Shown piece by piece: positions 4,701 to 63,916 of a DNA stretch of 64,000 nucleotides. Numbering within the stretch: position 1 is the first letter of the stretch; every line of letters starts with the position of its first letter. The translations under genes and the position numbers were made by a program. Source of the stretch: Halobacteriovorax sp. JY17 (GTDB taxonomy: Bacteria; Bdellovibrionota; Bacteriovoracia; Bacteriovoracales; Bacteriovoracaceae); contig NZ_NJER01000001.1 in assembly GCF_002753895.1 (NCBI RefSeq), forward strand, positions 1,364,910 to 1,428,909, read 5' to 3'. Below the pieces are notes generated by a model. That model was given only the letters and a program-made list of their open reading frames with translations. It had not been told where the DNA came from and did no database searches.

Positions 4701-4915
4701 GGTTTAACGATGTTGGTTTTGATGTTGAAAATTACGGAACTGATCCAGATATTGAAATCGATATAACACCAGATGATTGGGCCCATGGAAGAGATCCTCA
4801 ATTAGATAAAGCAATTGAAGTTGTTCTAAAAGAACACAAGCGAACTCCTTCTATAAAGCCTAACTTTAGTAAAAAACCAAACTTAAAAGCTCCAAAGCTG
4901 CCAAAGGGATATTAA
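1712..4915 (+). CDS. tri: Tricorn protease homologue
   Basis: This is a large peptidase of the tricorn family, which in archaea trims oligopeptides downstream of the proteasome. The 1067-residue protein has N-terminal beta-propeller repeats (about 1-660, e.g. LKISPDGEYLAYT), a PDZ region (about 765-850) and a C-terminal S41-type catalytic core. All four catalytic residues are visible: Ser723-His724 (GTSHAYE), Ser948 (HAGSDGD) and Glu1006 (DVENYGTDPD). No signal peptide is seen, so it is probably cytoplasmic. AGGAAG precedes the ATG. The stop overlaps the next start (TAATG), so it is the first gene of a coupled four-gene operon with rimB-like, rimK and aspA-like genes. Confidence 0.93.
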   Translation: MSQVGYYSSPEIYENKLYFISDDDIWLQDLSDVSRPATRVTAEKGNITSLKISPDGEYLAYTSTLSGGRDIYLMPKDGGIPTRLTYSQGMKVIGWKDDQTILCTSSHEHFTRRETLIYELDIHSKKLSAKNLGPATFFEESVNTQVLGKNNGDPARWKRYRGGTAGTIWIKSGERPFKQILKKIPTNLTCPKIIGERVFFVSDHEGIGNIYSVNMKGTNLKRHTHQSEFYVRSFSHFQGIIVFTANARIHSHNLMTNETFSLDIKINSQFLQARERFVSAEDYLQDFDIFKDAQKLSISARGKLFVVPPWGGAPIRLGDQASRYKLPRVALLKEKEILCSLKLDHENEEHLIYFDLATQKETSVLEKQDWGKVFELVPNPTQPLIALANNRNELFIIDLEKKNTQKIDQSSGDHIGDLSWSKDGQLLCYVKKESESEQLIKVYDSKSKKTHRTIKNVLADTSPTFSDCGKYLYFIGSREFNPCGSEFIFQYGFPFLAKVYAITLAEKTSSPLQLFKNFEVEKEEEDEKSKNKEEIKIDWNTLEDRIESLPFSQGGHRKLFTYKDQIISLKALVGPNDPNSTRWDNSSYELVSYSLKEKKVKTLLTQVSPERIQVRGKYLICETEEELRIINLEVKPSEEEDYNKTDGWVDLTRLKVKFSPRPEWKQMYREAWILQREHFWVSDMSKIDWADVYLKYLPLLERINTRSEFSDLIWEMQGELGTSHAYEFGGEYPNLGHPYSSGLLGATFTFNSKNKSFIIAEILRGDSWLEGHHSPLVKPGVSLNIGDQIYSVDGESFQDEISLSLHLENKCNTNISLEILRKGAKKKEILEVRTSEDDVTIRYRQWVNSNREYVKKKSNGKLGYLHIPDMSLKGMSEFWRAYSLESECEGLVIDVRYNGGGSVSQLLLKELQQKVLAFNTSRWFGESHYPIYSVNGPLVCITNEHAGSDGDIFSHSFKMLHLGKLIGKRTWGGVIGIWPRHSLSDFSLTSQPEFSFWFNDVGFDVENYGTDPDIEIDITPDDWAHGRDPQLDKAIEVVLKEHKRTPSIKPNFSKKPNLKAPKLPKGY

Positions 4916-5364
4916 TGAAGAAGAAAGAACTAAAGATAATTGGTTGGAGAGAAGAACTCTCTCTCCCCGATCTTGGAGGAACAGATATCAAAGTCAAGGT
5001 GGACTCAGGTGCTAAGACTTCCTCGCTACATGCTTTTGATTTAGAGTCCTATTCGCGCTTAGGAGTACACTTTGTGAAATTTAATATTCACACAGTGAAA
5101 AAGAAGAGAGAAGTCTCTATACCTTGTAAGGCAAAGGTTTTAGAATATAGAAATATTAAAAGTTCAAATGGACAAGTAGAAAGAAGACCAGTAATTGAAA
5201 CGAGAGTAAAGTTATTAGATGAGGTTTGGATAATTGAGCTGACTCTATCTAATCGTGATGAGATGGGATTTAAAATGTTACTTGGAAGAGAAGCTATCAA
5301 GAATCGCTTCCTAATAAACCCGGGTAAATCATTCTACTGTAACAAGAAAGGTGTGAAGAAATGA
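4915..5364 (+). CDS. RimB-like retropepsin-type protease (RimK-associated, Zn_protease/PF05618 family)
   Basis: This 149-residue protein belongs to the family once called ATP-dependent zinc protease (PF05618), now viewed as a retropepsin-like aspartic protease. It shows the family start IIGWREELSLPDLG, the active-site-like KVDSGAKTSSLHA (Asp near residue 29) and the C-terminal MLLGREAI. In Pseudomonas the relative RimB works with RimK on glutamate tails of ribosomal protein S6. The start overlaps the tricorn stop by one base and the gene ends in a four-base overlap with rimK. A tail-trimming or processing role opposite RimK is inferred from the family and the neighbourhood. Confidence 0.85.
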   Translation: MKKKELKIIGWREELSLPDLGGTDIKVKVDSGAKTSSLHAFDLESYSRLGVHFVKFNIHTVKKKREVSIPCKAKVLEYRNIKSSNGQVERRPVIETRVKLLDEVWIIELTLSNRDEMGFKMLLGREAIKNRFLINPGKSFYCNKKGVKK

Positions 5365-6578
5365 AATTAGCAATTCTATCTAGAGAAAAGAATAACTATA
5401 GTACGAGAAGACTTGTGGAAGCCTGTAAGATCAGAGGCCACGAAGTGAAAGTCTTAAATACTTTAAAGTTTGCCCTCGACTTAGAAGAAGGTGATCCAGA
5501 TCTCTATTACAATCAAAAGAGATTAGGTCACTTTGATGCCATTTTACCTCGAATCGGAGCATCTATAACTTACTTTGGAACTGCAGTTGTTAGACAATTT
5601 CAGGCCATGGATATCTACTCAGCGAATACTGCCGATGGAATCCTAAACTCAAGAGATAAACTTAGAAGTTTTCAAATACTAAGTAAACATCATGTAGGAC
5701 TTCCTTACACTACTTTTGTAAAAGATAAGAAAGATATTATTCCCGCCATCAACAGAATCGGAGGCGCTCCAGTTGTGATAAAACTCTTAGAGGGTACTCA
5801 AGGTGTTGGAGTTCTTCTTGCTCACACGATGGAGTCTGCAACATCAATCATTGAACTACTTCAAAGTCAGAAACAAAATATACTTGTTCAAAAATTCATT
5901 GCGGAAAGTAAGGGAAAAGATATTCGCGCAATCGTCGTTGGTGATCAAGTGATTGCAGCGATGAGAAGAGTTGCTCAAGGACAAGAATTTCGAAGCAATG
6001 TCCACCGTGGTGGAAAAACAGAAATGGTAGAACTCTCCGAAGAGTATAAAGAAGTTGCTATTAAGGCCGCAAAGATTATGGGCCTTGGTATTGCAGGAGT
6101 CGATATGCTTGAAGGAAAAGATGGCCCACAGATCATGGAGATAAATTCTTCACCAGGCCTAGAAGGAATTGAAGGTTGTACAAAGATAGATGTCGCTGGA
6201 GCTTTTATTGATTACATAGCAGGACAAGTAGACTTCCCAGAAATTGATATTCGTCAACAGCTCTCAGTGAGTAAAGGATTTGGTGTTTCAGAAATTTTTA
6301 TCCCAAAGGAATCTGAATTTGTTGGCAACTCAATTATTGAATCAGGCCTTCAAGAAAAAGATATCAATGTTCTAACTCTCCATAGAAATGGAAAAGTTAT
6401 CCCAAATCCTAAAGGCGAACGAGTTCTGGAAGCTGGAGATAAGCTCTTCTGTTTTGGGAGACTAGATACAATGAAGGACCTTATTCCTCTAAAAACAAGA
6501 AAGAAGAGAAAACCTAAGATTAAGAAGTTAAAAGTAAAAGATATTAAAAAAGCTAAAGAGCTAGAAGTACAAAAGTGA
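5361..6578 (+). CDS. rimK: RimK-type ATP-grasp glutamate ligase with C-terminal RCK_C (TrkA-C) domain
   Basis: RimK ligases add glutamates to a protein C-terminus, classically ribosomal protein S6. Residues 1-95 form the preATP-grasp part. Residues 100-290 form the ATP-grasp domain, with the glycine-rich loop LLEGTQGVG (142-150), the R-rich segment around 201-216 and the metal-binding EINSSPGLEGIE (260-271). Residues 305-374 (EIFIPKESEFVGNSI, then EAGDKLFCFG) match a TrkA_C/RCK_C ligand-binding domain, followed by a lysine-rich tail. Ordinary RimK ends near residue 300, so this is a fusion. It overlaps both neighbours by four bases (ATGA and GTGA). Ligand gating of the ligase is inference. 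Confidence 0.9.
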   Translation: MKLAILSREKNNYSTRRLVEACKIRGHEVKVLNTLKFALDLEEGDPDLYYNQKRLGHFDAILPRIGASITYFGTAVVRQFQAMDIYSANTADGILNSRDKLRSFQILSKHHVGLPYTTFVKDKKDIIPAINRIGGAPVVIKLLEGTQGVGVLLAHTMESATSIIELLQSQKQNILVQKFIAESKGKDIRAIVVGDQVIAAMRRVAQGQEFRSNVHRGGKTEMVELSEEYKEVAIKAAKIMGLGIAGVDMLEGKDGPQIMEINSSPGLEGIEGCTKIDVAGAFIDYIAGQVDFPEIDIRQQLSVSKGFGVSEIFIPKESEFVGNSIIESGLQEKDINVLTLHRNGKVIPNPKGERVLEAGDKLFCFGRLDTMKDLIPLKTRKKRKPKIKKLKVKDIKKAKELEVQK

Positions 6579-7603
6579 GTAAGGAAATAAATAAAGACCC
6601 AGAAATTCTAAAGATTGGCAAAACTTCTATAAAAAGAGGAAAGAGAGTAAATCTCTCTCTAGAAGTTGCCTCACTTTATGATCACACTCCCCTCTCAATT
6701 CCAATTGAGGTCATTAGAGGTAAAGTCGGCGGACCAACTCTATTTATTAGTGCAGCTGTTCACGGAGATGAGCTCAATGGCGTTGAGATCATTAGAAGAA
6801 TTTTAAAGAGAAAAGAGCTTACCCATATCAAAGGAACTCTCATACTTGTTCCAGTAGTAAATATTTTTGGATTTAATAATAAGTCTAGATATCTCCCAGA
6901 CAGAAGAGACCTTAATCGCTCATTCCCAGGGACTAGTGGTGGCTCCCTCGCCAGTAGAATGGCAAAGTTATTCATGAAAGAAGTCATCGATAAATGTACT
7001 CACGGGATTGACCTTCATACAGGTGCCATCCACAGAACAAATCTTCCACAAATTAGAGCATGCCTTGAAGATGAGAAAACAAGAGAGCTCGCAGAGAGTT
7101 TTGGAGTCCCTGTTATTATTGATTCTAAACTTAGAGATGGCTCCCTTAGAGAAGCAGCAAGAACGAAGAAAGTAACTACTCTTCTCTTTGAGGGGGGAGA
7201 GGCCCTACGTTTTAATGAAAGTGTTATTAGATCAGGAATAAAAGGTTGCTTCTCTGTCATGGAAAAAATTGGCATGATAAAGAAACCTGCCTCAAAGAAG
7301 CCAAAACTTCAAAAGAATGTCTTTATAGCAAACTCCAGTTACTGGATTCGCTCTCCTCATAGCGGAACAGTTCACTTTAATAAAATGATTGGTGATAGAG
7401 TTAAAAATGGTGATCTTCTAGCAAGCGTGTCCAACACTTTTGGTAGAGAATCAATTGATATTCATGCCAAAGAAGATGGTATTCTTGTCGGTCTCTCAGT
7501 TCTCCCTCTAGTAAATCAAGGAGACGCTCTATTCCACCTGGCCACCTTTAAAAACTCAACGAAAGTGAAAAAAGCTCTCGAACTTTATGGCGAGGATGAG
7601 TAA
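6575..7603 (+). CDS. AspA/AstE-type M14 metallohydrolase (succinylglutamate desuccinylase/aspartoacylase family)
   Basis: This 342-residue zinc hydrolase has the M14-type ligand set: His and Glu in AVHGDELNG (about residue 68), the DLNRSFPG loop and a second His in GIDLHTGA. A catalytic-type Glu lies in LLFEGGEA. The C-terminal part (from about 250) is a small beta domain typical of this subfamily. Known members cleave N-acyl amino acids. Genes of this group often accompany RimK, so removal or release of an amide-linked amino acid is plausible but unproven. The start is GTG overlapping the rimK stop (GTGA). It is the last gene of the tricorn operon. Confidence 0.85.
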   Translation: MSKEINKDPEILKIGKTSIKRGKRVNLSLEVASLYDHTPLSIPIEVIRGKVGGPTLFISAAVHGDELNGVEIIRRILKRKELTHIKGTLILVPVVNIFGFNNKSRYLPDRRDLNRSFPGTSGGSLASRMAKLFMKEVIDKCTHGIDLHTGAIHRTNLPQIRACLEDEKTRELAESFGVPVIIDSKLRDGSLREAARTKKVTTLLFEGGEALRFNESVIRSGIKGCFSVMEKIGMIKKPASKKPKLQKNVFIANSSYWIRSPHSGTVHFNKMIGDRVKNGDLLASVSNTFGRESIDIHAKEDGILVGLSVLPLVNQGDALFHLATFKNSTKVKKALELYGEDE

Positions 7604-53346: not shown

Positions 53347-54696
53347 ATGAAAAAAATCATTCTGCTATCACTACTTGTCTCTGCAATTTCAGTACAGGCA
53401 AATTCCAGGAATGTTGTTCAAGAAGGGTTCTTCGTAAATGACGGATCTAGGGAGCTTCTAAAGAAAATTCACCAACAAGGAATATTCACAGTAGATCATC
53501 CAACGAGTAAGGGGTATGAAGTCTATGGTCCAAAAGGATTAAGAAGCTGGTTAACAAAGAACTCTCCCTTCTCATACTACTCACTCAATCTAGGGCAAAA
53601 AGAAAAAGCTCTTTCAACGTATCCAAGTCCTGAACAAATTGGAAAGAAATTAAAAGATCTAGCAAAGAAATATCCAAGTATTTTTAAACTTTTTAGTATT
53701 GGAAAGACGGAGCAAAATAGAGAACTTTGGGTGATGAAAATTTCTGATAATGTTCAAGTAGATGAAGTAGAGCCAGAATTTAAATATGTCGCAAATATGC
53801 ACGGTGATGAAATAGTTGGAAGAGAGATGATGGTTTCTCTTCTTGAAGAAATCGCTCACAATTACACCGCTGGCGATCCTGAAACATCAGCTCTCGTAAA
53901 TAATACTGAGATTTTCATTATGCCTTCTCTAAACCCAGATGGAGCAGCAGGAAGAAGAAGAGGAAATGGAAATTGGAGAGATCTCAACAGAGACTTTCCA
54001 GACGTAGATAGAGATGCCAAGAATAACTTCTTTGAAGTGAGTATCTTTGACAATATTGAAAGGGATCACCAAAAAGAAACAGTCGCCATGATGAAGTTTC
54101 AATCAGAGAGGCACTTTGCTCTTTCAGCAAATTTTCACGGCGGAACAGAAGTAGTAAACTACCCTTGGGACACTAAGAGAGACGACTTTCCTTACAAGAA
54201 TCTTGTTGTGGATCTCTCTAAAGAATATGCTAGAAAAATTCCTTCAATGAGAGATAACAGAGAATTTGTTGATGGTATTGTTAATGGCTACGAATGGTAT
54301 GAGATTAACGGAGGAATGCAGGACTGGAGTTACTTCTGGCATCAGGACCTTCAGGTAACAATCGAGCTATCGCACTCAAAATGGCCAACTTATGACCTAG
54401 TTCAATCTTACTACGATAAGAATAGAGACTCTCTCTTTGATTATATGAAAAGTATTCATCAAGGTTTTGGAGTAAAGCTTAAAGAAGCTAGAAACTTTAA
54501 TGTTGTTATTGATAAAATAGAGAACGAAAAACTAAGAAGGATAGAGTCAATCCCTGTAAATGGGAAAGAGTTCTACAAAGTGCTCTCACCTGGAAAATAT
54601 AGAATTCAGATAATCTCAAATGGACTAAATAAAGAAATAGAAGTTGACATTAATGACCATAGTATTTCAACTAATGGGAATTTTTACTCGATCTAA
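53347..54696 (+). CDS. Secreted M14 zinc carboxypeptidase
   Basis: The M14 fold removes C-terminal residues from peptides. Zinc ligands are His152 and Glu155 (NMHGDEIVGRE) and His264 (NFHGGTEVVN). Substrate-binding residues are in RDLNRDFPD (about 211-219), and the catalytic Glu is in VTIELSHSKWP. A signal peptide (MKKIILLSLLVSAISVQA) exports it. The C-terminal 75 residues form a carboxypeptidase D-like beta domain. It is directly upstream of a RimK-like gene on the same strand, with a 17-bp inverted repeat between. Confidence 0.92.
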   Translation: MKKIILLSLLVSAISVQANSRNVVQEGFFVNDGSRELLKKIHQQGIFTVDHPTSKGYEVYGPKGLRSWLTKNSPFSYYSLNLGQKEKALSTYPSPEQIGKKLKDLAKKYPSIFKLFSIGKTEQNRELWVMKISDNVQVDEVEPEFKYVANMHGDEIVGREMMVSLLEEIAHNYTAGDPETSALVNNTEIFIMPSLNPDGAAGRRRGNGNWRDLNRDFPDVDRDAKNNFFEVSIFDNIERDHQKETVAMMKFQSERHFALSANFHGGTEVVNYPWDTKRDDFPYKNLVVDLSKEYARKIPSMRDNREFVDGIVNGYEWYEINGGMQDWSYFWHQDLQVTIELSHSKWPTYDLVQSYYDKNRDSLFDYMKSIHQGFGVKLKEARNFNVVIDKIENEKLRRIESIPVNGKEFYKVLSPGKYRIQIISNGLNKEIEVDINDHSISTNGNFYSI

Positions 54697-54707
54697 TTCG
54701 AGTCTTA

Positions 54708-54751
54708 TTAATCAATAATCTTAAATAAATGAGCTTAAGATTATTGATTAA
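54708..54751. repeat. Perfect 17-bp inverted repeat
   Basis: TTAATCAATAATCTTAA (54708-54724) is repeated in reverse complement at 54735-54751 with a ten-base spacer. It lies 12 bases after the carboxypeptidase stop and 45 bases before the RimK-like start. No T-tract follows, so it may be an operator or an RNA processing site rather than a standard terminator. Confidence 0.7.
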
Positions 54752-54795
54752 ATCTCCGATCAGATTCATAAACTATAATTCACTAGGTGGTATAA

Positions 54796-55707
54796 ATGGA
54801 AGGTTGGCTTCTCTACAAGGAAGACTCAAAATTCTTAAAGAAATCTTATGCTGTTGCAAGATTAATGGAAACAGCTAAGACTGAAGGTATTCATTTAAAA
54901 ATTGTCAGTCCAAAAGATATAGATATCACTGTCACTTGGGAAAATAGAAAATCAATTCACTTAAAAGGTGAACTCGTTCCCCTCCCCGACTTTATCATTC
55001 CAAGAATGGGTGCTTATACCACCTATTTTGATCTGGCGGTCATACGTCACTTAGAGAGACTCGGTGTAAGATCATTCAATACGTCTGAAAGTATCGAGAT
55101 AGTAAAAGACAAATTGTACTCTCATCAAATTCTTGCTGAGTATAATATGCCTGTGCCAAAAACGATGCTCGTGAAATTTCCTGTTGATGTTGACTTCATT
55201 GAAAAGAACTTAGGTTTTCCTGTCATTGTAAAAACACTTAGCGGTTCACAAGGTGTTGGAGTCTTTCTCTGTGAAACAAAGAGAAACTTAGCTGACATGA
55301 TGCAACTTGTAGAATCTACAAATATTAATGCCAATATTATTCTACAAGAATTTATAAAATCAAGTAAAGGTAGAGACCTTCGTGTCTTCACTCTTGGAGG
55401 AAGGGTTCTAGGTTGCGTAGAACGAGTGGCAAAAGAGGGAGACTTCAAGGCCAACTACTCACAAGGCGGAGAAGTGCGTGCTTTTGAACTTACTCCAGAA
55501 ATTGAATGGCTCGCCCTAGAGGTTTCGAGGGCCTTCAATTTAGATATTGCAGGGATTGACTTACTCTTTGACGGTTCTCACTTTAAAGTCTGTGAAGCAA
55601 ATTCGGCACCAGGGTTTGAAACAATTGAAAAATGTCTAGATATGGATGTTGCGAAGGAAATCTTTCATTTCCTCCGCGTTAGACTTGGAAATTTCCGCAA
55701 GAAGTAA
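54796..55707 (+). CDS. RimK-like ATP-grasp ligase (second paralogue)
   Basis: This 303-residue protein keeps the RimK architecture without an RCK_C domain. It has IPRMGAYTTYFDLAVIRHLE, the ATP loop TLSGSQGVGVF (about 153), the R-rich RDLRVFTLGGRVLG and the metal-binding site CEANSAPGFETIE, where RimK normally has EINSSPGLEGIE. The changed metal-site sequence and the distinct N-terminus (DIDITVTWENRKSIHL) suggest another substrate, perhaps closer to N-acetylaspartylglutamate or tetrahydromethanopterin ligases. AGGTGG precedes the ATG. Confidence 0.85.
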   Translation: MEGWLLYKEDSKFLKKSYAVARLMETAKTEGIHLKIVSPKDIDITVTWENRKSIHLKGELVPLPDFIIPRMGAYTTYFDLAVIRHLERLGVRSFNTSESIEIVKDKLYSHQILAEYNMPVPKTMLVKFPVDVDFIEKNLGFPVIVKTLSGSQGVGVFLCETKRNLADMMQLVESTNINANIILQEFIKSSKGRDLRVFTLGGRVLGCVERVAKEGDFKANYSQGGEVRAFELTPEIEWLALEVSRAFNLDIAGIDLLFDGSHFKVCEANSAPGFETIEKCLDMDVAKEIFHFLRVRLGNFRKK

Positions 55708-58417: not shown

Positions 58418-59380
58418 CTAAATACCTAGGTGTAGAACTCTAGTTCCTGCATCACAATTAGGTCTGATATTTTTTCCAATGACAATACCCGAGTGCGTAC
58501 TAAAGATTTCTTCTCGAACCTGTCCAAATACGTCATAAACTTTTGCAACTAGTTGACCTTTTTCAACCTTTTCTGCAATTACGGGGAAGACATCAACAAG
58601 TCCACCTTTGGAAGAATATAACCAAAAAGAGTGATCACAAATTGTTGTGGTCTTAACCATATTTCTAACTTTTCCTTCAATAATCTTTAAATACTTCATC
58701 GTATTTAAAATTCCGAGTAAGGTCTCATCAATAAGCTTATGCTGAAACCCATTTGGATTTCCAATTTCAATAGTAATAGCATTAATACCATTGTCATTTG
58801 CCCAGCCCCTAAGAGTTCCACTCTCATCGCTCTTTTGAACAATAATCTGTGGATTTTGAAGATAAGCTAAATTGCGACATTCAGGTTTATCAAGGTCCGC
58901 GCGAATATAGAGACTATTCACTCTTCCCATACTCGCCGTATGAAGGTCTAGAAGATAATCAAACTTCTTAATAACTTTATTTATCAAGTGATGTGTATAG
59001 ATACTACTGGCTGCCCCCTTGGACTTACCTGGCATAATTCTATTTAAATCAACATTATCTATGAAGTATCTTTGATTTTTTAAATAACCTGGAACATTAC
59101 TAATAGGAATAAGAATCAACGTTCCACTCATCTTCATTGGGTCTACTTCTTGAATAAGCTTATATATTGTAGATATACCATTGAGCTCATTTCCATGAAT
59201 TGCAGCAGTTATACCTAGAACTTTTCCTTTCCTCTTCCCTTGAATAATAATAACGGGAAGCTTCCATGGAACACCAAGAGAATTGTCAGATAAGTGAACT
59301 TGAAATCTATGAACGACACCTCTCTTAAGTCTAGAAAGCTGTATAGAGTCTTTAACCTTAACGTAGACAGTTTTTTCCAT
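58418..59380 (-). CDS. AspA/AstE-type M14 metallohydrolase (second paralogue)
   Basis: This 320-residue enzyme is a paralogue of the one at 6575. It keeps the zinc ligands in AIHGNELNG and DLHTASMGR, the loop VDLNRIMPGK and the catalytic-type Glu in TIEIGNPNGF, plus the C-terminal beta domain. It lies nine bases downstream of rimK-3 on the same strand, repeating the RimK-then-AspA order of the first operon, but without tricorn or rimB. Removal of an amide-linked group is inferred from family and context. Confidence 0.85.
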   Translation of the reverse strand: MEKTVYVKVKDSIQLSRLKRGVVHRFQVHLSDNSLGVPWKLPVIIIQGKRKGKVLGITAAIHGNELNGISTIYKLIQEVDPMKMSGTLILIPISNVPGYLKNQRYFIDNVDLNRIMPGKSKGAASSIYTHHLINKVIKKFDYLLDLHTASMGRVNSLYIRADLDKPECRNLAYLQNPQIIVQKSDESGTLRGWANDNGINAITIEIGNPNGFQHKLIDETLLGILNTMKYLKIIEGKVRNMVKTTTICDHSFWLYSSKGGLVDVFPVIAEKVEKGQLVAKVYDVFGQVREEIFSTHSGIVIGKNIRPNCDAGTRVLHLGI

Positions 59381-59389
59381 ACTTAATCC

Positions 59390-60307
59390 TTATAAGTGAG
59401 TTCTCTTATGATATGAGGGTTTTGATTTAACTTTTTCAACTTCTGACACCACAAATTCAAGTATGAGTCTTGCGATATTCTTATCCATCGCCTTTTCAAT
59501 CCCCTCTAGCCCCGGGCATGAATTTACCTCAAGAATCAAAGACCCATTATCACTTCGTAAAATATCAATTCCAGCTACATTTAACTTAAATTCCTTCGCT
59601 GCCTTTACTGCAATTTCTCTCTCTCTTGGAGTCAGTTTTACTTTCTTGGCCTCTCCTCCTAGATGAAGATTTGATCTAAAGTCTTCGCCATTAGAAGAGC
59701 GGATCATGGAGCCAATAACTTTTCCATTGAGAATAAATACTCTCACGTCAGTTCCTATCGACTCTTTAATAAATTCTTGTAAAATTAAACTTGTATTCGT
59801 TAATCCAAAGGCTTCAATAATAGATTTTGCAGACTGCTTTGTCTCAGCAAGAACAGTTCCCTTCCCCTGAAGCCCCTCAGTTAATTTAATAATGACAGGA
59901 GTTCCTCCCACTTTATCCAAAAGTTTTGATGCATTTAATGAATCATTTGAAATAGCAGAATTTGGAAAAGGTAAATTCTTTTTAGAGAGAATCTGTAAGG
60001 TTCTTAGTTTATCTCTCGCTCTAGCAATTCCAAGAGAAGAATTTAATGAGTAGACGTGCATGGCCTCAAAGTGCCTTAGCACCGCCATTCCATATATACT
60101 CTTATAAATTCCTACTCTAGGAATAACTGCATCAAGCCCACTAAGAGATTGTCCATTATAAAGAATGTCAGGCTTTTCATTATTTAAAATAAGATCACAA
60201 TTCGTGTAATCAATATGAATTATATCTAAACCTAAATTCTGCGCTTCTTCTAAAATTCTTGAATTTGAATAATTCTCAGAACTTTTACTTAATAGACCTA
60301 TCTTCAT
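59390..60307 (-). CDS. RimK-type ATP-grasp ligase (third paralogue)
   Basis: The protein is a standard-length RimK (305 residues): MKIGLLSKSSENYSNSRI, AVIPRVGIYKSIYGMAVLRHFE, the ATP loop LTEGLQGKGTVL and the metal site EVNSCPGLEGIE. It is closer in motif to the RCK_C-fused RimK than to the one at 54796. The ATG at 60307 follows GAGG by five bases; longer frames exist. It heads a two-gene operon with an AspA-like hydrolase and is divergent from two SET-domain genes. Confidence 0.88.
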   Translation of the reverse strand: MKIGLLSKSSENYSNSRILEEAQNLGLDIIHIDYTNCDLILNNEKPDILYNGQSLSGLDAVIPRVGIYKSIYGMAVLRHFEAMHVYSLNSSLGIARARDKLRTLQILSKKNLPFPNSAISNDSLNASKLLDKVGGTPVIIKLTEGLQGKGTVLAETKQSAKSIIEAFGLTNTSLILQEFIKESIGTDVRVFILNGKVIGSMIRSSNGEDFRSNLHLGGEAKKVKLTPREREIAVKAAKEFKLNVAGIDILRSDNGSLILEVNSCPGLEGIEKAMDKNIARLILEFVVSEVEKVKSKPSYHKRTHL

Positions 60308-60524
60308 CATTCCCTCAAAACTAATACTCAAGCAAGATTATCCTCCCCTGAATAAATTATTAAAACTCGTTTTTTCCCTCAATTTAATTCACTTTTTCCT
60401 AAGCGTTAAAATGGAAACCTAAGTAAATGAAATTTTAATTAATTTAAAACTAATCTATACGGATAAAAAAACGATTTTTCTTAACCTCATTCTTGGCCTT
60501 ACAATCATCCTTAGAGGAGTTTCA

Positions 60525-60980
60525 ATGTTGCTAGTCAAAACATTTATAAAGGAATCGCCTATTCACGGGAAAGGCCTTTTTGCAGATGAAGATATTTCTG
60601 AAGGAACACCTATCTGGAAATATAGTGCAGATACAACTTCCTTAATTGCAGCTTATGACTTTATAAATCTCTGTAAACAGCTCAGCTTCAAAGAGATTCT
60701 CACTTACCTAACTTACTCCTACCTTAGAAATGACCAAGTATGGCACGTTCTAGATAATAGTAAGTATATTAATCATGGTGAAAATTCCAACATTGCCTTT
60801 CTAGATAATTTCCAAGAAATTGCAATTAGAGATATAAAAAAAGGAGAGGAGCTTATAGAGAATTACCACAATTGCTATGATCATAATGACTTCTTCAACT
60901 GGGATTTCTGCAATATTGAAACAAAAGAGAATGCTCTAGAGCTACTCTACAAGAATTGGAAGGTTCCCCACTATGCTTAA
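60525..60980 (+). CDS. SET-domain protein (first of a tandem pair)
   Basis: SET domains methylate lysine side chains with SAM. The 151-residue protein shows the SET start SPIHGKGLFADEDISEGTPI, the SAM/target segment YINHGENSNIAF and the end IKKGEELIENYHN with the catalytic-type Tyr. No signal peptide or other domain is present. AGAGGAG precedes the ATG. It overlaps the second SET gene by eight bases. The target protein is unknown. Confidence 0.85.
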   Translation: MLLVKTFIKESPIHGKGLFADEDISEGTPIWKYSADTTSLIAAYDFINLCKQLSFKEILTYLTYSYLRNDQVWHVLDNSKYINHGENSNIAFLDNFQEIAIRDIKKGEELIENYHNCYDHNDFFNWDFCNIETKENALELLYKNWKVPHYA

Positions 60981-61365
60981 CGTAGAAACTTATGTCTCCG
61001 ATTCAATATTTCATGGACTCGGTCTCTTTGCAAAGAATGATATTCAACAAGGAGAAATCATTTGGACTTACAATCAAAAGATTGACCACTCCTATACCAT
61101 TAAAGAGTGGAATGATTTAAAAGAAACTCTTAGCAGTCCCTCCTTTAAAACACTTCAAAACTTTGCCTATAAAGAAAGAGATAAGTACTTTATTTGTTCA
61201 GATAATGCCCAATATATGAATCATCACGCCCACGATTACAATGTTAAGAACTCAAAAGATCTAAACACAATGTATGCCTTAAGAAATATATCTAAAGATG
61301 AAGAACTTCTTTATAATTACTTTGAAAGTTCTGACAAAGATGATTTCCACCTAAAGTTCTTATAA
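60973..61365 (+). CDS. SET-domain protein (second of a tandem pair)
   Basis: The 130-residue protein is a divergent copy of the preceding one: DSIFHGLGLFAKNDIQQGEIIWTY aligns with the first protein's SPIHGKGLFADEDI region, YMNHHAHDYNV replaces YINHGENSNI, and SKDEELLYNYF carries the terminal Tyr. In the second copy the NHxxxxN cluster is altered, so its activity is less certain. It starts inside the end of the first SET gene (eight-base overlap) behind AAGG, indicating coupled translation. Confidence 0.8.
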   Translation: MLNVETYVSDSIFHGLGLFAKNDIQQGEIIWTYNQKIDHSYTIKEWNDLKETLSSPSFKTLQNFAYKERDKYFICSDNAQYMNHHAHDYNVKNSKDLNTMYALRNISKDEELLYNYFESSDKDDFHLKFL

Positions 61366-61366
61366 T

Positions 61367-62014
61367 CTATTTTCTTTCGGAATATCTATCGACCAAGAAA
61401 TTTGATTGATCGCGAGTTAAATAAGTAAAACGCATTAGCTCTTCCATGACATCGACAACTCTATCTCTAAAGGCAGAGGCCTTCATATCCCCACTTTCTT
61501 CAAACTCTTGATAGGCCTTTGCAACACTTGATTGATTGGGAATTGTAATCATTCTCATCCAACGACCAAGTATTCGCATATTATTTACAGCATTAAAGCT
61601 CTGAGACCCACCACTAACTTGCATTAGAGCAAGGGTTCTTCCTTGAGTTGGCCTAACAGCTCCAAGAGTAAGAGGAATCCAATCAATTTGAGTTTTAAGC
61701 AATCCAGACATATTACCGTGAAGCTCTGGAGAAGACCAAACATGGGCCTCTGACCACAGACTTAGATCTCTAAGCTCTTTTACCTTTGGGTGATCCACAG
61801 ACTCTTCATTATCAAATAAAGGAAGCCCTCTTGGATCAAAGAATTTCACTTCTGCTCCCATAAAGGTTAAGATTCGTCCCGCTTCTTCGGCCAAAAGACG
61901 TGAATATGAGCGCTCTCTAAGAGATCCATAGAGAATTAAAATCCTTGGTCTGTGCTCCGAAGAAGTTACTTCATTAATTTTTAAATTAAATTTTTCATTT
62001 TCTAGATACTTCAT
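61367..62014 (-). CDS. arsH: ArsH NADPH-dependent FMN reductase
   Basis: ArsH is a flavoprotein of arsenic operons that oxidises trivalent organoarsenicals. The protein shows [20 protein letters not shown] (FMN phosphate loop), [20 protein letters not shown] and [16 protein letters not shown], all typical of ArsH. The ATG at 62014 overlaps the acr3 stop (TAATG), preferred over the earlier in-frame ATG at 62026. It is the last gene of the arsenic operon. Confidence 0.92.
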
Positions 62015-63054
62015 TAGTATTTCCATTTATTTGATATTTTAACGAGACTTAACATAATAGGAACTTCGATAAGAACTCCTACAACAGTTACAAGAGCAGC
62101 TCCAGAGTTAATCCCAAACAAAACGATTGCAACAGCAACTGCAAGCTCGAAGAAGTTACTGGCCCCAATCATTGACCCTGGAGAAAGAATACAATGCGGA
62201 AGATTCATTCTCTTTCCAATGAACCATGCGCAAAAGAAAATAAAGTAAGTCTGTATGGCTAAAGGTATCGCAATGAGAAGAATATCCACAGGATTTGAGA
62301 TAATTTTATCACCTTGAAAAGCAAATAATAAAACAAGAGTTGTTAAAAGAGATGTGATGGAAAGTGGTCTCAGCTTCTTTAAGAAAACTTCATTGAACCA
62401 CTCTTTACCAAAAGTCTTGTTCAGTACCTTATTTACAATAACTCCAAAAAATAGCGGAACAACGATGAAAATAATAACTGAAGCCGACAAAGTATCAAAT
62501 GGAATGGCTATATTAGTTACTCCAAGAAGTAGTTTTACAATAGGAATAAAAGCGACAAGAAGAACTAAGTCATTAATTGAAACCTGAACTAAAGTGTACT
62601 CAGGGTCTCCATCAGTTAAGTATGACCATACAAAAACCATAGCTGTACATGGAGCGGCACCTAGTAGTATGGCCCCCGCAATATATTCTTTGGCCATCGC
62701 TGGAGAGATAAGTCCCATATACAATTTCTCAAAGAATATCCATGCAAAGAATGCCATAGTAAAAGGCTTAACGAGCCAATTTATAAATAAAGTAAGAAGA
62801 AGACCTTTAGGGTTCTTTCCCACATTCTTAACAGAAGTAAAGTCAATTTGAACCATCATTGGAAAAATCATAAACCAAATCAGAATAGCGATAGGAATAT
62901 TTACACTTGCAATACTCATTAGACTCAAGGACTCAACTGCCCCCTGAAAATTTCTACCGATAAGTATTCCTAAGACAATGCAAAGAATCACCCAAGTAGT
63001 AAGATGCTTTTCAAAGAAGTTGATACTTTTTTTATTTTCAATTTGATTATCCAT
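62014..63054 (-). CDS. acr3: ACR3 family arsenite efflux transporter
   Basis: Acr3 expels arsenite from the cytoplasm. The protein has ten hydrophobic segments and the family residues in [21 protein letters not shown], including the conserved Cys, and [20 protein letters not shown]. The ATG at 63054 lies behind GAGGG and overlaps the arsC stop by eight bases. An upstream frame from 63081 lies inside arsC and is rejected. Confidence 0.93.
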
Positions 63055-63469
63055 TAATATATCCCTCAATTCCTTCAACAAAACTCTTTATCTCATCTCT
63101 AACTCTTCTATATACAGAAAGAATCTCTTCCTCATCAGTTATCTCTTTTGTCAGGCGAGGGGGATCATCAAAACCAAAGTGAATAATTTTCCCTCCAGGA
63201 AAGTAGGGACAATTCTCATTTGCATCAGAACAAACAGTGAAGACGATATCCATTTTTACATCTTCAAATTCATCAACAGTATTTGAAATATGTCCTGAAA
63301 TATCAACTCCAGCTTCCTTCATGACACTAACGGCTCTAGGATTTAATCCATGCTTAACTGTTCCTGCGGAATAAAAATTAAATTTTTCTTTAGAAAATAA
63401 AGACTTCCCCCAACCTTCGGCCATTTGAGAACGACACGAATTACCAGTACATAGAAATAATATATTCAC
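63047..63469 (-). CDS. arsC: Arsenate reductase (thioredoxin-type, low-molecular-weight phosphatase fold)
   Basis: This enzyme reduces arsenate to arsenite for export by Acr3. The P-loop LFLCTGNSCRSQMAEG holds the nucleophilic Cys7, and the redox cysteines lie in TVCSDANENCPYFPG, the Cys spacing of the thioredoxin-coupled ArsC class. The start is GTG after AGGAG. It lies 13 bases after the regulator gene. Confidence 0.93.
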   Translation of the reverse strand: MNILFLCTGNSCRSQMAEGWGKSLFSKEKFNFYSAGTVKHGLNPRAVSVMKEAGVDISGHISNTVDEFEDVKMDIVFTVCSDANENCPYFPGGKIIHFGFDDPPRLTKEITDEEEILSVYRRVRDEIKSFVEGIEGYING

Positions 63470-63482
63470 TTCTCTTCTCCTA

Positions 63483-63878
63483 TTAAAAGCAATCTAAAAT
63501 TGGACACTCGCTAAGTGGAAGACTAGTATCTTCACAGCAGTCAGCGAGTCCCTTCAGGGATTTCTTCATCCTTTTTAAGTCTTTAATTTTTAAATCTATT
63601 TCTGCTATTTTTTGTTCAGCTCTCTCTAGAACATCGCTACACTTTGAAGCTTTTTTAATTCTAAGTGCGAGTAATTCTCCAATTTCAGCAAGAGAGAATC
63701 CCAACTCCTGTGCTCTCCTTATGAAGATCACTCTCTGAACATAGTCATCAGAATAAGTGCGAAAACTTCCAGTCTTTTGAGGTTGTTTAATGAGCTCTTT
63801 TCTCTCATAAAAGCGAATTGTCTCGATATTGACATTAGCCGCTTCAGCGAGTTTTCCAATAGTAAGTTTTTCTTTCAT
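63483..63878 (-). CDS. MerR-family regulator of the arsenic operon
   Basis: The protein begins with a MerR winged helix-turn-helix (LTIGKLAEAANVNIETIRFY) and continues into the dimer helix. Cysteines occur in KCSDVLE, ADCCEDT and SECPILDCF, close to the Hg(II)-binding Cys82, Cys117 and Cys126 pattern of mercury MerR. It is the first gene of an operon with arsC, acr3 and arsH; no ArsR repressor is seen. The likely start is the ATG at 63878, six bases after the -10 box, which implies a leaderless transcript. Confidence 0.85.
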   Translation of the reverse strand: MKEKLTIGKLAEAANVNIETIRFYERKELIKQPQKTGSFRTYSDDYVQRVIFIRRAQELGFSLAEIGELLALRIKKASKCSDVLERAEQKIAEIDLKIKDLKRMKKSLKGLADCCEDTSLPLSECPILDCF

Positions 63879-63884
63879 AGACAT

Positions 63885-63916
63885 AGTATACACTCCGTAC
63901 CATAGTACGGAGTCAA
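63885..63916 (-). promoter_or_regulatory. MerR-type promoter/operator of the arsenic operon
   Basis: On the minus strand, TTGACT (63911-63916) and TATACT (63885-63890) are 20 bases apart, the over-long spacing typical of MerR-activated promoters. The spacer holds a palindrome with nine-bp arms (ACTCCGTAC/GTACGGAGT, 63892-63913), nearly the same as the mercury mer operator half-sites CCGTAC/GTACGG. Confidence 0.9.

Follow-up and report, generated by a model that had tools for sequence, protein, structure and literature searches.

Overlapping genes for two single-domain SET proteins, retained as a pair in Bacteriovoracia and Desulfobacterota-labelled genomes

Introduction

The Chlorella-virus protein vSET (PDB 3kma) is known as a homodimer. 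It and other small SET proteins of phages and giant viruses consist of the SET domain alone and have about 105-140 aa. Bacterial SET proteins have mostly been read as effectors aimed at host chromatin. The earlier note on the locus described here likewise held bacterial SET proteins to be uncommon and best known from pathogens; however, bacteria carry one to four SET genes per genome, free-living species included, and the family is less bound to pathogens than was claimed (PMC3980110).

We analysed a 64-kb stretch of DNA, called the window throughout, from a Halobacteriovorax-like genome. It contains two adjacent SET genes, SET1 and SET2. On sequence grounds we read them as a putative protein-lysine methyltransferase that works with two subunits (or in two steps), is made by coupled translation and acts on an endogenous target. 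In this reading, which we hold to be evenly poised, both the heteromer and its substrate are inferred. It includes the view that the two genes form one coupled unit and encode old paralogs, each a minimal SET methyltransferase of a single domain.

Results

Two SET genes with an overlapping junction

The two genes and their junction are located as follows.

60525..60980, + strand: SET1, single-domain SET protein of 151 aa
60973..61365, + strand: SET2, single-domain SET protein of 130 aa, paralog of SET1
60973..60980, + strand: 8-base stop-start overlap ATGCTTAA, read from the sequence, joining SET1 to SET2

Both products had been called SET proteins, with an HMM search proposed as the check. 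Against PF00856, SET1 scored 40.4 bits (E 4e-10) and SET2 47.3 bits (E 3e-12), both above the Pfam gathering cut-off of 22.4, and a profile search of the PDB also identified both as SET. The Pfam search found no second domain in either protein, and no SET match beyond these two was found in the 3.47-Mb genome. The folds of the AlphaFold models agreed with the assignment (pLDDT 92.3 for SET1 and 93.7 for SET2). The best PDB matches listed were SET-domain proteins, at Z 10-11 for the SET1 model and Z 11-12.5 for the SET2 model; COMPASS Set1, EZH2, MLL, SETD8 and vSET were among them (Z 10-12.5). SET1 has a short C-terminal helix that SET2 lacks. SET1 and SET2 are genuine SET domains. No signal peptide was apparent by eye at the N-terminus of SET1 (MLLVKTFIKE) or SET2 (MLNVETYVSD), in agreement with the earlier statement that neither has one.

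Distribution and history of the pair

An intact SET1-SET2 pair was found in 13 genomes, four of Bacteriovoracia and nine Desulfobacterota-labelled MAGs (labels Desulfobulbaceae, Desulfobacteraceae, Desulfosudis or Deltaproteobacteria). The Bacteriovoracia carriers are the window genome (G000), its sister species G001, and G024 (L123) and G108 (L124), which are labelled 'Bacteriovoracia bacterium' and belong to other genera of the same family. SET1 was present in all 13 genomes with SET2, and SET2 in 13 of the 14 with SET1; the sole SET1 without SET2 among the searched groups was that of G097. The order was invariable, SET1 lying directly upstream of and overlapping every SET2 (13/13). When 84,980 species genomes were scanned with SET2 alone, so that a lone SET1 outside the searched groups could escape, 11 strong loci were obtained, namely G024, G108 and the nine MAGs, and all 11 carried SET1 immediately upstream. 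No further pairs were found in 369 genomes of the phylum or in 258 and 389 genomes of two Desulfobacterota classes. On plasmids and phages we found no SET1-SET2 pair, only single distant SET genes. Three of five genomes of the same genus were without SET1 and SET2, and the function is therefore dispensable. Between the window genome and G001 the SET proteins were 58-61% identical, as against 79-93% for their neighbours, and dS between these two sister species was saturated for the SET genes.

The overlap of eight bases stated in the earlier note was confirmed in the window. Its length was 8, 26 or 41 bases in 12 genomes (41 in G024; 8, 26 or 41 in the nine MAGs) and 7 bases in G108. Overlaps of 8, 26 and 41 bases keep one reading-frame register, which is thus common to 12 of the 13 pairs, and an identical 8-base junction, ATGCTTA(A/G), was found in six of them (window, G001, L127, L128, L132 and L133). 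The overlap probably serves translational coupling of SET1 and SET2.

In the phylogenetic tree, SET1 proteins formed one clade (14 rows, support 99/98) and SET2 proteins another (13 rows, support 98/97). Each clade held both phyla, and their inner subclades matched. The duplication therefore predates the spread of the pair, and the two genes travelled together. A recent tandem duplication was ruled out, since the clades had separated before the copies of the two phyla diverged. As few genomes of either phylum have the pair, its horizontal transfer as a two-gene unit would be the simplest account, with repeated loss as the alternative. The SET1 and SET2 distance matrices were correlated (r 0.77; 0 of 10000 permutations as high, Mantel), as is expected in such a mirror-tree comparison for any linked genes, so that the value cannot tell interaction from common descent. 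In the tree the orphan SET1 from G097 has a long branch, and both the Asn of NH and the switch Glu are missing from it, as if it had decayed without its partner. This gene (L087:4520-4996) has a degenerate NH motif (KH), adjoins a DksA-like gene and lies between two RimK-AspA loci.

Two independent enzymes of one pathway would also account for the co-inheritance and the overlap. SET1 and SET2 would then be monomeric or homodimeric, like vSET, and would act sequentially or on two sites with no complex between them. In favour of this, both paralogs keep all catalytic residues while differing at other active-site residues, and SET-only vSET is among the structural matches of both models (3kma, Z 10.3 and 11.1). 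The strict one-to-one presence of the two genes in both phyla, with overlapping frames, and the decay of the orphan in G097 fit a complex somewhat better. We consider independent enzymes possible, if on the unlikely side.

Active sites of the two paralogs

SET1 has the SAM-binding GxG motif at G15/G17, the pair N83-H84, Glu112 at the switch position and Tyr114 at the catalytic position. SET2 has an NH-x5-N motif, Tyr114 at the switch position and Tyr116 at the catalytic position. By the established SET literature and the HMM alignments, the position two residues ahead of the catalytic Tyr corresponds to the Phe/Tyr switch of characterized SET enzymes. In the alignment columns GxG, the His (His84) and the catalytic Tyr were invariant in all 27 pair-clade proteins, and the Asn of NH was kept in every member except SET1 of G097. 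The switch position was occupied by Glu in 13 of 14 SET1 proteins and by Cys or Tyr in all 13 SET2 proteins.

A changed NHxxxxN motif in SET2 had been taken as the mark of an active/inactive pair. The change itself is real, as SET2 has NH-x5-N rather than NH-x4-N; however, all SET2 proteins share this variant, as do the nine SET1 proteins from the Desulfobacterota-labelled MAGs, and it is therefore ordinary for the subfamily and no sign of inactivity. Neither paralog is without its catalytic residues, GxG, NH and the catalytic Tyr being kept in both. The proposed split into an active and an inactive partner was thus not upheld, and inactivation of SET2 through its NH motif was ruled out.

The switch Glu was also ruled out as a unique mark of SET1, because Asp or Glu also occupies this position in SET proteins of phages and bacteria that are encoded without a partner, a sample partly biased by a viral scan whose pattern ended in E. 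The acidic residue is therefore a difference between paralogs and not new chemistry. With Glu in SET1 and Cys or Tyr in SET2, the two sites would be expected to differ in their specificity for substrate or product.

These residues also bear on a pairing of one catalytic subunit with a pseudoenzyme, in which SET2 would carry out the catalysis and SET1 would regulate it, or the other way round. In other methyltransferase families such partners are common, and a charged Glu in 13 of 14 SET1 proteins stands where an aromatic lysine channel is expected. The invariant GxG, His and catalytic Tyr of both paralogs argue against such a division, as do the ordinary nature of the NH-x5-N motif once cited for it and the acidic switch residues of unpaired SET proteins, and we regard it as improbable.

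The RimK-AspA neighbourhood

Upstream of SET1 the following features lie between positions 58418 and 60524.

58418..59380, - strand: AspA/AstE-type deacylase (AspA2), PF24827 115.6 bits, adjoining rimK
59390..60313 (5' end approximate), - strand: RimK-family ATP-grasp ligase (RimK3), PF08443 194 bits, above the TIGR00768 cut-off
60314..60524, no strand: divergent spacer between rimK and SET1, 211 bases from the RimK ATG, aligned with G001

RimK3 did not reach the equivalog cut-off of the S6--L-glutamate ligase model. The interval 59390-61365 spans RimK and the SET pair, with AspA outside it. A control region of 217 bases shared with rimK-aspA had been claimed; the divergent spacer is present, but its length is 211 bases when counted from the RimK ATG. 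The spacer is partly conserved in G001, for example at TTTAAAACTCGTTTTT in the alignment. A pattern scan found no sigma-70-like promoter pattern within it, and the scan for promoters and terminators gave matches at chance level only.

The SET genes and RimK had been proposed to form a small protein-modification island. In its full form SET1/SET2 and RimK-AspA would modify one target, for example a ribosomal protein that receives both lysine methylation and C-terminal glutamylation. G001 has the whole block in synteny, with RimK-AspA likewise divergent from the pair. In G377 (Desulfobulbaceae) the SET pair diverges from a RimB-RimK-AspA operon of another kind; the orphan SET1 of G097 has two RimK-AspA loci within 3 kb. 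RimK proximity in 3 of about ten lineages is above what we would expect by chance, but it was noticed post hoc, and the RimK/AspA subtypes differ among the recurrent cases. The arrangement seen in the window was kept in the sister species G001 only. The pair lies in unrelated places in G024 and G108, and the AspA ortholog of G024 is on another contig. In the remaining lineages the flanks examined (8-10 kb on each side, less on short contigs) contained neither RimK nor AspA, and five pair-carrying genomes had no AspA-type match. Relatives with the genes in unrelated places had been named in the earlier note as grounds for refutation, and for the RimK part of its proposal these results amount to that. 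The window genome itself has nine AspA-type matches, and three RimK/AspA-type pairs fall within the window, an unusual expansion of such chemistry in this genome.

4915-7603: RimB-RimK-AspA
53347-55707: weak AspA-like ORF with RimK
58418-60313, - strand: AspA-RimK, the pair adjoining the SET genes

With three such pairs in one 64-kb window, chance adjacency is therefore not negligible. We reject an obligate partnership with RimK-AspA in view of the unlinked pair in G024, the lack of both genes from the other flanks examined and the genomes with no AspA-type match. RimK-AspA recurs beside the pair in some lineages but is probably not a component that the pair requires, and a joint island is decidedly improbable.

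Several Bacteriovoracia also share a gene order LysR / unknown / (RimK) / AspA, in which the unknown member is the following protein.

L087:6494-7918, L091:4489-5919 and L092:4403-5827: 474-aa protein without a Pfam match

Other neighbours

Apart from the partner SET, no gene was conserved near the pair across the carriers. Neighbourhoods differ by lineage, and the constant partner of each SET gene is therefore the other SET. In the window, arsH faces SET2 from downstream, and a single base separates their stop codons. It belongs to an arsenic-resistance cluster (61367-63893, - strand; MerR-like regulator, ArsC-like, ACR3-like and ArsH) that lies right against SET2. In G001, SET2 is followed by BAX-inhibitor and YebC genes, with an arsH homolog about 7 kb further on. 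An MgtC-family gene lies directly 3' of SET2 in two Desulfobacterota-labelled MAGs (L133:3834-4313, with a 4-base overlap, and L130:6414-6902). Carboxyspermidine-type polyamine synthesis genes occur near the pair in G376 (L132) and G377 (L133) only, where a small ORF with a possible zinc ribbon lies between them and the SET genes. A distant homolog of one polyamine gene was found near the pair in G369/G373. A polyamine connection is a weak lead.

The window genome is that of a marine and probably predatory bacterium; going by its named relatives, its lineage includes predatory bacteria, and SET1 and SET2 could in principle be secreted effectors that methylate prey or other host proteins, like those of Legionella and Chlamydia. 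Although bacterial SET proteins are best studied in that role (PMC3980110), such use here is unlikely, and very much so, given no export signal visible by eye, no ankyrin or other extra Pfam domain, a score of 18.7 bits against the NCBIfam AnkI/LegAS4 equivalog cut-off of 550, nine Desulfobacterota-labelled MAGs among the carriers and no conserved gene beside the pair.

Discussion

The earlier note had proposed that the two SET proteins work as a pair. Both the tandem overlapping order, kept by 13 genomes from two phyla, and the separate clades fit an obligate two-protein unit; the active/inactive form given to that proposal did not survive. In the mechanism that we favour, the overlap would couple translation so that SET1 and SET2 subunits are made in fixed proportion, and the two would act together as a heteromeric protein-lysine methyltransferase. 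The heteromer may have two complementary active sites, or one subunit may mainly methylate while the other shapes substrate choice. SAM would be used to methylate an endogenous cytosolic protein, and the switch residues, Glu in SET1 and Cys or Tyr in SET2, may set different site specificities.

A bolder form of this proposal is that the pair is an obligate heteromeric bacterial SET methyltransferase, built from two minimal SET domains, carried as a two-gene unit by Bdellovibrionota and Desulfobacterota and directed at a conserved endogenous target. We advance it tentatively, as falling somewhat short of an even chance. No description of an obligate coupled SET pair was found in the open-access literature. 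A tandem pair without visible export signals that is kept across two phyla points to a home use for bacterial SET methylation. Two proteins of about 130-150 aa also make a minimal system for asking whether SET domains work as heteromers, and the effect of a charged residue at the Phe/Tyr switch on specificity may be examined in the same pair.

Comparison with known SET systems

SET1 and SET2 share with eukaryotic MLL/KMT2, EZH2 and SETD8 the SET fold (Z 10-12.5), the GxG and NH motifs and a catalytic Tyr, which lies in a GEEL..Y motif. In contrast to these enzymes they are bacterial, have no pre-SET, post-SET or partner domains and occur as a coupled paralog pair, and their switch residue is Glu in SET1 and Cys or Tyr in SET2. 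A search of 38 genomes for a possible histone substrate, with the histone-fold model PF00808, gave no match; divergent bacterial histones have been reported in Bdellovibrio (PMC10627809) and may escape this model.

The proteins AnkI/LegAS4/RomA of Legionella and NUE of Chlamydia are also bacterial SET proteins. The AnkI/LegAS4 profile matched weakly, and structure 5czy matched the SET2 model at Z 10.9. Unlike these effectors, SET1 and SET2 have no ankyrin repeats or visible export signal, and their carriers are not host-cell pathogens.

In size and in having the SET domain alone, SET1 and SET2 resemble vSET and the other small viral SET proteins. Those are encoded singly, whereas SET1 and SET2 are two diverged paralogs encoded together. 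The nearest homologs outside the pair clades are single SET proteins of about 130 aa, found for example in genus g24 of the same family, Chitinophagaceae, Alphaproteobacteria and phages, whose best scores against the pair profiles were about 90-100 bits, as against 180-214 bits for members of the pair.

A second kind of tandem SET pair was found in Desulfobacteria.

L214:824-2058 (G714) and L213:1243-2306 (G796): second tandem SET pair

There too two SET genes lie together with their stop and start codons overlapping or abutting. These proteins belong to other SET subfamilies with cysteine-rich post-SET tails and are not orthologous to SET1 and SET2. Tandem SET pairs may thus be a recurring bacterial arrangement.
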